Assembly: GCF_004366815.1 (NCBI RefSeq)
Contig: NZ_SORI01000004.1
Span: 1 to 64,000, forward strand
Length of the DNA stretch: 64,000 nucleotides
Direction: 5' to 3'
From: Aminivibrio pyruvatiphilus
GTDB lineage: Bacteria > Synergistota > Synergistia > Synergistales > Aminobacteriaceae
Shown: one piece after another, positions 41,604 to 44,653 of the stretch
Layout: each line of letters opens with the position of its first letter
Numbering within the stretch: the first letter of the stretch is position 1
Notes under the pieces: generated by a model
What the model was told of the DNA's origin: nothing
What the model saw: only the letters and a program-made list of their open reading frames with translations
Databases searched by the model: none
Made by a program: the position numbers and the translations under genes

Positions 41604-43439
41604 TCAATCTATCCAGACGGTAATTTCGGGAAAACCGGTCCTGGAGTTTCCTATGGAAAAAAAGGGAGCAAGGGCATTCTGAACCCTGGACGGTGAAGGA
41701 ACCGTCACCCAGAAGACAAGAGGCGGTTCTCCCGGATCCATCGGGACCAGCCCTGTTTCCTCCAGTTTCGCCATTATACTCTCTTTCAGGCGCTGGGAAG
41801 GAGACTTGATCTCGAGAAGAAACGAAAAAGGAGGCAGCTCGAGTTCCCTTCTTTCGCGGAGTTCATCGTTCCAGAAATGATCCCAGCCGAGAAGCATCCC
41901 CTTTTGCCACCCGCTGCCCGGACGCCTGCTCTGGAGGAGGACGGTGCGCCCATCCGGGCTTCCTCTCCAGAGAGATTCCCACATCATGGAAAAGGCCGTG
42001 AATTTCGCCTGAAATGAAACACTCCTCACTTCGCTGTCGGCGTCGATCCACGCAGCGAAGCCCACGTCGGCCATGTCGCACAGAGCCAGGGCGGAACGGG
42101 TTCCCAGGACGATGCCCCCCTCCGCGAATTCTTTTCTGAGTTCCTGGGCTGCCTTCTTTCCCGAGGCTTTTGTTCCATCCCAGACAAGCACCGGTTTCTT
42201 ATCAGGCGCTGCCGCCCGGGCCACTGGAAGGAGGGCCTCAAGACCGGGGCGCTTCCCTGTGAGAAGGACTCCCCTGCAGGAGGGGCAGGCCTCAGGAAGG
42301 GGGAAAACCCTGCCGCAGGAAGTGCATCTGAGTCTCCGGCGTTTTTCCTCCCAGGCTGCGACCCGTCCGCAGAAACTGCATAAAAGGGGATTTCCGCATT
42401 CCTCGCAGGCCACCTCGCCTGCGTATCCCTTTCTGTCCAGAAGCCAGAGAGCCGTTTTCCCCGCGGCAAGGACCCGCGTTGTTTCTGAGAAAAGCGCGGC
42501 GGAAAGGGGAAGGGAACCCGAGATGCCCTGGAATTCGGAAGAAAAGCTGTCTTTCAGATCCACAAGCTTTACTGACTCCCGGGGAGGGCGCCGGGTGCAT
42601 TTCGGTTTTCCGCGAAGGTATACCCTCGAGGAAGGCAGCCGTCCTGAAAGGATGAGGGCCGCTTGTGCCAAAAGGGCCTTTCTGGCGGCAACCGACCTGA
42701 TGTTGAGAAAGGGGCGCCTGTAGGTCCTGTAAGCGCCGCTGCTTTCTTCATCCACAATGACGGAGCGGATACGGCAGAGCGGGGCGAAAACGGCTCCCGG
42801 CCCCCCGATAATGCCTCTAACCCGCCCCATTCGTGCTGCAAGCCAGGCATCGTGCAGTTTTTTCCCTCCTGTCGGGGGCCACAGGAGAGAAGTTTCCCTG
42901 GCCGTGGGTGAAAGAACGTCAAAAAACGCTGCTGCCATCCTCTGTTCCGGGAAAAGGGCAAGGAAGGGATGACCGTTGTTCAGGGATTCTGCAAGTTTTT
43001 TCCACCGGGAGGAGGTGTCGCATTCATAGAGGAACATCTCTTCGTACTGGCCGGGGACCTCCGGAAAAGGCCCTTCTGCTGGGGTAAAGTCTTCAAGAGA
43101 GCCGGGGCAGGAGAGAACGTCAGGCGGCACGGCAATTTTCAAAACCTCGCCGGGACCGCAGAGGAAGGTCTTTCCGGTCCAGTTGATGAGATCGAGTTCT
43201 TCGTCCGTTACCAGGGGGCCGCCATCGCAAAGAATCTCCGCCTGACGAACGGTGAATGATTCTTTTTCCGGAAGGGAGGCAAAAAATGAATCCGCTATTC
43301 CGAACCGCGTTCCCCTGCCTACAGGTATCCTCAGGCGGCATCCGCGGGGAAGGGGTGAAGGCAGTTCATAGGTCAGGGGGTTCCACCATGGTCCCGGTAC
43401 GATGACATTGCAGAAACAGGGAGCCCCCACATTATTCAC
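41604..43439 (-). CDS. priA: PriA-like primosomal protein with eroded helicase motifs
   Basis: This 611-residue protein sits exactly where priA does in many genomes (gmk-rpoZ-coaBC-priA) and keeps the PriA layout: an N-terminal 3' DNA-binding domain (NVIVPGPWWNPLTYELPSPL), the eight-cysteine zinc region (CEEC, CSFC, CTSC, CPSC at about 341-384) and LDRKGYAGEVACEECG. The helicase motifs look lost: the Walker A site is replaced by LYECDTSSRWKKLAE (about 136-150), DEEH is DEESSGAYR (about 230), LGSATPS is LSGRLPS, GTQMxxKGHDFP is GTRSALALCDMAD, and the QVAGRAGR motif is absent. It is about 120 residues shorter than E. coli PriA. The reading frame is intact, so it is likely a functional non-helicase restart factor. 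The start overlaps the coaBC stop (ATGA). Confidence 0.85.
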   Translation of the reverse strand: MNNVGAPCFCNVIVPGPWWNPLTYELPSPLPRGCRLRIPVGRGTRFGIADSFFASLPEKESFTVRQAEILCDGGPLVTDEELDLINWTGKTFLCGPGEVLKIAVPPDVLSCPGSLEDFTPAEGPFPEVPGQYEEMFLYECDTSSRWKKLAESLNNGHPFLALFPEQRMAAAFFDVLSPTARETSLLWPPTGGKKLHDAWLAARMGRVRGIIGGPGAVFAPLCRIRSVIVDEESSGAYRTYRRPFLNIRSVAARKALLAQAALILSGRLPSSRVYLRGKPKCTRRPPRESVKLVDLKDSFSSEFQGISGSLPLSAALFSETTRVLAAGKTALWLLDRKGYAGEVACEECGNPLLCSFCGRVAAWEEKRRRLRCTSCGRVFPLPEACPSCRGVLLTGKRPGLEALLPVARAAAPDKKPVLVWDGTKASGKKAAQELRKEFAEGGIVLGTRSALALCDMADVGFAAWIDADSEVRSVSFQAKFTAFSMMWESLWRGSPDGRTVLLQSRRPGSGWQKGMLLGWDHFWNDELRERRELELPPFSFLLEIKSPSQRLKESIMAKLEETGLVPMDPGEPPLVFWVTVPSPSRVQNALAPFFSIGNSRTGFPEITVWID

Positions 43440-44653
43440 AGAAGCCAGTCCTCTTCAAGAATTCTGTTCCACACCCTTTCGGCCACATCCTCCTTTGTTC
43501 CGGAGAATTCGTCGGCGCTCCCGTCCCTGGAAAGAAGCCTGACCGAGTTGGTGTCGGTCCCGAAACCTGAACCGGAGGCGGTTATGTCATTGGCAACAAT
43601 ATAATCGAGATTTTTCCGCTTCATTTTTTCGGAGGCGTTGGCCAGCAGGTCGTGGCTTTCAGCGGCGAAGCCGATGAGAGTCTGTCCCTGCCGCTTCCGC
43701 TCCCCGAGCGAAGCGGCAATGTCCGTGTTCTGGACCAGGTCCACCGTGACAGCGTCGGCATTCGCCCTCTTGATTTTTCTGTCGCTGAAGGAGGCTGCCC
43801 GGAAATCGCCCACTGCGGCCGCCTTGACGATATAGTCCATTTCTTCTGAAAGGGCCAGAACCGTCCGCTTCATTTCCTCTGCAGACACAACGGACTTGAC
43901 GTCAAACCCGCTGAGGTTGGAAAAGGCGGCAGGACCATGGACAAAGGTTACCGAGGCGCCTCTGTACCATGCAGATCTCGCCATGGCATACCCCATCTTC
44001 CCCGTGCTGGGATTGCTGAGAAACCTGACGGGATCAAGAAATTCCCAGGTGGGGCCGGCGGTGACGAGGACATTTTTTCCCTCGAGTTTTTTTGAAGGGC
44101 ACAGGGTTTTCCACATTTCCTCCAGAATAACCTCCACGGAGGGGAGCCTGCCTTTGCCTTCGTATCCGCATGCCAGGCTTCCCGTTTCCGGATCGGCAAT
44201 GATGATTCCCGTTTCCTTCAGGATTTCCATGTTTCTGGCCGTAGCGGGATGATTGAGCATATTCACGTTCATTGCCGGGAACACCACTACGGGCGCTCCG
44301 GTAGCAAGGAGCAGAGAGCAGAGCAATTCCTTTCCCGCCCCCCTGGCCATGTTCGACAGTGTTTCCGCTGTGCAGGGGGCGACGATGACCACATCAGCCC
44401 AGTCCGCCAGCGTAATATGGGGTATTTTCCACCCCGCGTCATCGGAAAGGAAGTCGGATTGTCTCCAGACCCGTTTGCCGGCCAGTGTGGACAGTACCAT
44501 GGGGCTGACGAACTTTTCGCCGTCGGAGGTGAGCACTGCCTCCACGTCACACCCGGATTTCACGAGAGCACGTACGATCTCCGGGGTCTTATAGGCGGAA
44601 ATGCCTCCCGTTATGCCGAGAACGACTTTTCTCTTCTGCTTCCAGTCAGGCAT
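43436..44653 (-). CDS. coaBC: Bifunctional phosphopantothenoylcysteine decarboxylase / phosphopantothenate-cysteine ligase
   Basis: This 405-residue fusion performs two consecutive CoA steps. The CoaC flavoprotein half has LGITGGISAYKTPEIVRAL (about 12-30), VIVAPCTAETLSNMARG (about 88-104) and PAMNVNMLNHPA (about 125-136). The CoaB half begins near 190 with NVLVTAGPTWEFLDPVRFLSNPSTGKMG (in parts) and has FVHGPA and KAAAVGDFR. With coaD at 32778, two CoA genes are in the window. It lies between rpoZ and priA, the widespread order. Confidence 0.97.
   Translation of the reverse strand: MPDWKQKRKVVLGITGGISAYKTPEIVRALVKSGCDVEAVLTSDGEKFVSPMVLSTLAGKRVWRQSDFLSDDAGWKIPHITLADWADVVIVAPCTAETLSNMARGAGKELLCSLLLATGAPVVVFPAMNVNMLNHPATARNMEILKETGIIIADPETGSLACGYEGKGRLPSVEVILEEMWKTLCPSKKLEGKNVLVTAGPTWEFLDPVRFLSNPSTGKMGYAMARSAWYRGASVTFVHGPAAFSNLSGFDVKSVVSAEEMKRTVLALSEEMDYIVKAAAVGDFRAASFSDRKIKRANADAVTVDLVQNTDIAASLGERKRQGQTLIGFAAESHDLLANASEKMKRKNLDYIVANDITASGSGFGTDTNSVRLLSRDGSADEFSGTKEDVAERVWNRILEEDWLL

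Follow-up and report, generated by a model that had tools for sequence, protein, structure and literature searches.

The priA locus and the domains of its product

The window, by which we mean the whole 64,000-nucleotide stretch of Aminivibrio pyruvatiphilus DNA that was analysed, comes from a 3.35-Mb draft assembly (98.9% complete) and contains a priA orthologue between coaBC and der. Its reading frame is open throughout and encodes 611 amino acids, 121 fewer than the 732 of E. coli PriA. The features of the locus are as follows.

43436..44653 (-): coaBC, the upstream neighbour of priA
41604..43439 (-): priA orthologue, 611 aa, with a GTG start overlapping the coaBC stop codon
43125..43409 (-): 3' DNA-binding domain, residues 11-105, kept (PF17764 above cut-off)
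43047..43124 (-): residues 106-131, a short linker in the place of the lost winged-helix domain (20 aa, 95 in E. coli)
42984..43043 (-): strand-loop-helix remnant of Walker A, residues 133-152, with the loop cut to about 3 residues and R145 at or next to the K230 position
42741..42752 (-): Walker B, residues 230-233, DEES instead of DEEH
42633..42647 (-): motif III, residues 265-269, SGRLP instead of GSATP
42276..42407 (-): cysteine-rich region, C345-C388, with eight zinc cysteines invariant in 77 sequences
41961..41981 (-): motif VI, residues 487-493, WESLWRG instead of QVAGRAGR
41607..41888 (-): residues 518-611, the C-terminal domain, which has lost about 26 aa relative to E. coli and keeps the ER-ELxLPPF segment
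40265..41581 (-): der (EngA GTPase), the downstream neighbour of priA

The identification of the gene as a priA orthologue is based on a match to the 3' DNA-binding domain (3'BD), matches to PriA models, and synteny. In Pfam, the 3'BD (PF17764, E 4.9e-11) was the only domain above the cut-off and no helicase domain was reported. The NCBIfam PriA models matched with E values down to 3.7e-43 and 141-148 bits, beginning at about residue 150, which is far below their cut-offs of 230 bits and more; for instance, TIGR00595 scored 140.9 bits against a cut-off of 230.35, short of what an active helicase was expected to reach. The solved structures related by sequence were PriA chains only, and the named relatives returned by an alignment-based search were all from Synergistota (Synergistaceae MAGs, Acetomicrobium hydrogeniformans, a Dethiosulfovibrio MAG, and others). 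The coaBC-priA position, which the first-pass annotation had described as conserved, proved to be part of a gene order, gmk-coaBC-priA-der, that recurs in both Synergistota classes: of the 79 loci with sufficient flanking sequence, some of them from genomes counted twice, 78 have coaBC upstream of priA on the same strand (in the window with an overlap of four bases), and der lies downstream in most loci of both classes. The coaBC-priA adjacency is also found in Bacillus velezensis.

The domains of the protein were found to be unevenly retained. The first-pass annotation had stated that the DNA-binding N-terminus is kept, which holds for the 3'BD (97 aa versus 99 in E. coli) and fails for the winged helix. 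The stretch between the 3'BD and the helicase core is only 11-38 aa across the phylum, whereas the winged-helix domain and linker take up 95 in E. coli, and these lengths indicate that the winged-helix domain is deleted in Synergistota PriA. In E. coli, this domain docks on the parental duplex (PMC10175261). All eight zinc cysteines, already noticed in the first pass, lie inside the second helicase lobe as in other PriA proteins. The shortfall of about 120 residues, also noticed then, results mostly from the loss of the winged helix, which had been overlooked, and further from shortening of the P-loop region and of the C-terminal domain. The 3'BD, the cysteine-rich region, the predicted fold, and the coaBC neighbourhood are therefore all those of a PriA; the winged helix, which is usual in PriA and was not taken as essential, is the one absent feature.

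Helicase motifs and the predicted fold

Alignment to E. coli PriA supported the first-pass observation that the Walker A, DEEH, LGSATPS-like, and GRAGR motifs are missing or changed. At Walker A, LAGVTGSGKTEV of E. coli is replaced by LYECDTSSRWKK, and the P-loop GVTGSGKT, which marks an active helicase, is absent; Walker B changes from DEEHD to DEESS, motif III from LGSAT to LSGRL, and motif VI from QVAGRAGR to ESLWR-GS or ESLWRG. An intact P-loop would have spoken against a dead motor. No such loop was found in the alignments, and in the AlphaFold model, the strand of residues 133-138 joins the helix of residues 142-152 via three residues. The model thus indicates that the phosphate-binding loop is absent and not simply mutated.

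Several parts of the former nucleotide pocket are nevertheless conserved. R145, invariant in 77 sequences, was placed on K230 of E. coli in two MAFFT alignments and shifted by one to T231 by hhalign. The position of E. coli E322 is Glu in 77 of 78 Synergistota sequences, which makes E232 nearly invariant, and 69 of 78 keep the first motif VI arginine. These residues could suggest that PriA is still an ATP-driven helicase that uses a rearranged, unorthodox pocket with Arg at the Walker lysine and a single Walker B Glu. We regard this as very improbable, because the glycine-rich loop is missing from all sequences and from the model, half of the sequences carry Asp for the catalytic Walker B Glu (E. 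coli E321), motif III is changed, and K230R alone abolishes the ATPase of E. coli PriA (PMC4504706). The conserved parts of the pocket, E232 and the motif VI arginine, perhaps have a structural role only.

The predicted overall fold, in contrast to the motor motifs, is that of PriA. The AlphaFold model (pLDDT 94, pTM 0.92) had PriA structures as its top nine PDB matches, the best being E. coli PriA bound to a fork (8fak, TM 0.80, rmsd 5.2) and the second-best being 6dcr, an E. coli PriA from which the winged helix was deleted by design. The apo and ADP crystal forms of PriA matched less closely (TM 0.60-0.69, rmsd 8-10), and every domain of the fork-bound fold except the winged helix is kept in the model. 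It has been reported that upon fork binding by E. coli PriA, the zinc domain pivots by about 85 degrees, a pore for the lagging strand forms, and a partner site is exposed (PMC10175261). The Synergistota protein may adopt the fork-bound shape by default, judging from one model made without a canonical-PriA control.

Distribution and selection in Synergistota

The same state was found throughout the phylum. The Synergistota PriA query was matched in 176 of 188 genomes, or in 115 of 116 among those of good quality. Walker A is absent from all 78 aligned Synergistota PriAs of both classes, and motifs III and VI are changed in nearly all of them. The aligned representatives were drawn from twelve families, and five of the genomes belong to the deep-branching second class. 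All of them lack both Walker A and the winged helix, with identical boundaries. Since essentially the same changes occur in 77 other Synergistota PriAs, chance or sequencing error is excluded as their origin, and the question left by the first pass, whether the whole phylum shares the loss, can be answered in the affirmative. The TIGR00595 cut-off was exceeded in four genomes only, all of the deep class. These were considered as possible carriers of an intact PriA and rejected, because their matches do not begin until position 12-14 of the profile, beyond the P-loop, and the proteins have no P-loop.

A second, full-length PriA would have allowed the helicase function to reside elsewhere. None was found in the host genome, where the remaining matches were partial and fell within large frames of other helicase-like proteins. 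The 188 Synergistota genomes likewise yielded no PriA with a motor. No PriA was found in viral contigs. In a plasmid collection, priA was matched in records (hits H22, H31, H45, and H87) of which several are chromosome-sized (for example, Acinetobacter, 4.1 Mb, and Fusobacterium, 2.1 Mb); the chromosome-sized ones are useful as reference sequences and are probably mislabelled.

In the phylogenetic tree, which is unrooted and has long branches, the canonical PriAs all fell on one side (support 83/89), and the deep class did not form a resolved clade. This topology is consistent with a single loss of the motor in the Synergistota ancestor, and the comparisons taken together indicate that the loss is phylum-wide and old.

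The eroded gene is under constraint, as indicated by dN/dS values of 0.158 and 0.159 in comparisons with two congeneric relatives. Highly conserved positions are present in all domains, the dead motor lobes included (e.g. W199, E232, G266, W464, D468, S489, and G493), and this spread suggests that the lobes are kept as structure. Retention under selection of a gene whose motifs are degenerate across an entire phylum is one of the marks of a pseudohelicase of the Deinococcus type. In a few genomes of the phylum, priA is interrupted by a stop codon or a break in the frame, as might be expected of a decaying pseudogene or an assembly error; such an explanation is refuted for the gene in the window by its open frame, its dN/dS of about 0.16, and the identical state in 77 relatives and both classes, and we assign it practically no probability. 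The breaks are a frame change in G118 (C1:1285401-1287166) and internal stops in G035 (TAG, C4:64215-65993) and G061 (TAA, C93:7500-8858), and may reflect either sequencing error or real decay.

Two further variants were observed. In genome G057, the priA frame (contig C449:1222-3642) encodes 861 aa, with repetitive inserts rich in Asn, Gln, Ser, and Leu between the conserved blocks. One of these inserts adjoins what was once motif VI, and insertions thus seem to be tolerated by the dead motor. In genome G028, the synonymous divergence of priA from that in the window is about 0.7 over most of the gene and only 0.16 over the last ~90 codons, as after recombination at the priA/der end.

It could also be considered that PriA has left replication restart for another DNA-binding task, such as one at the origin or in recombination, with restart having become independent of PriA. 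The protein has lost the fork-binding winged helix and part of its C-terminal domain, and the pocket for the 3' end differs at F16/D17, as such a change of task might produce. However, D17 varies among canonical PriAs as well, and, apart from the winged helix, the fork-bound fold is retained in all its domains under purifying selection. We therefore consider a departure from restart unlikely, although less so than a cryptic ATPase.

Replication restart and comparison with known PriAs

The reading that we favour, and hold to be highly probable, is that Synergistota PriA is a pseudohelicase that recognises forks and helps to reload DnaB without unwinding DNA. This agrees with the first-pass proposal of a helicase-dead scaffold, which is the best-supported reading of the sequences given the phylum-wide loss, the lack of a second PriA, and the precedent of D. 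radiodurans. We infer that PriA would recognise abandoned forks and D-loops by means of the 3'BD, the inactive two-lobe core, and the cysteine-rich zinc domain, and would then serve as a landing site at which DnaB is put back on the lagging strand, probably with the help of the loader DciA. With the P-loop cut out, normal ATP binding and hydrolysis should be impossible, and the lagging arm would not be unwound by PriA itself. Opening a lagging arm that is duplex would require a different enzyme, and the UvrD-type helicases encoded in the host genome are candidates for this task. DciA, a helicase loader, is encoded in the host genome and in 25 of 26 sampled Synergistota genomes, and a loader of the DnaD type is absent from the host genome. 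IstB/DnaC-family ATPases were also matched there, however, and DciA is thus a candidate for the loader.

A more far-reaching possibility, which we put forward tentatively and think rather less likely than not to hold in full, is that unwinding was lost in the Synergistota ancestor and that removal of the P-loop and winged helix fixed PriA in a fork-bound, loader-recruiting shape, so that restart proceeds through DciA and DnaB without an ATP-driven switch in PriA. If true, helicase-free restart would be the permanent state of a phylum and would extend beyond an oddity of Deinococcus. Whatever its origin, Synergistota PriA offers a natural minimal PriA, with neither winged helix nor motor, for testing which role of the protein is indispensable, and "helicase" annotations of priA are misleading in this phylum.

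A scaffold role without unwinding would be in line with what has been reported for E. coli. PriA that is dead as an ATPase still assembles primosomes (PMC4504706), and the ATPase and helicase activities of PriA are dispensable for PriA-PriB restart in vivo (PMC10175261). Synergistota PriA has the 3'BD, two helicase lobes, cysteine-rich region, and C-terminal domain in common with E. coli PriA (8fak, 4nl4, and 6dcr), and differs from it in the absence of the winged helix and P-loop and in the changes to motifs II, III, and VI.

The first-pass annotation had pointed to actinobacterial PriA-like proteins as the parallel, and in the literature the PriA of this group is called "smaller and very divergent" (PMC1193525). 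In the one actinomycete that was compared, Tsukamurella, the likeness holds in that a short priA lies near coaBC, motifs I, II, and VI are lost, and the zinc cysteines are retained. It fails in that other residues occupy every lost motif (WDDGD, and no motif VI) and the tree branch is much longer. The actinobacterial loss is probably separate from that in Synergistota, and the resemblance looks parallel.

Deinococcus-Thermus is the better-documented parallel. The helicase motifs of PriA have been described as well conserved, with this group as the notable exception (PMC4504706), and work published in 2015 showed that the D. radiodurans protein has no measurable ATPase or unwinding activity and yet binds forks and DnaB (PMC4504706). 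Walker A and B are degenerate across the phylum in both cases. The Walker lysine has become Arg in Deinococcus-Thermus (GKT to GRT; PMC4504706), and Synergistota PriA has an invariant Arg on or next to the equivalent residue. In contrast, the Walker motif of Deinococcus-Thermus is still recognisable (PMC4504706), whereas in Synergistota the loop and the winged-helix domain are deleted. A search of open-licence papers for PriA with Synergistetes found, as judged by titles, only genome reports and unrelated papers. A PriA pseudohelicase is thus already known in kind from D. radiodurans, and what is new is the phylum, the depth of the erosion, which has taken away the P-loop as well as the winged helix, and how widely the erosion has spread. 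The occurrence of a further whole phylum in which the loss has been taken further than in Deinococcus-Thermus suggests that the indispensable role of PriA is fork recognition and helicase loading.
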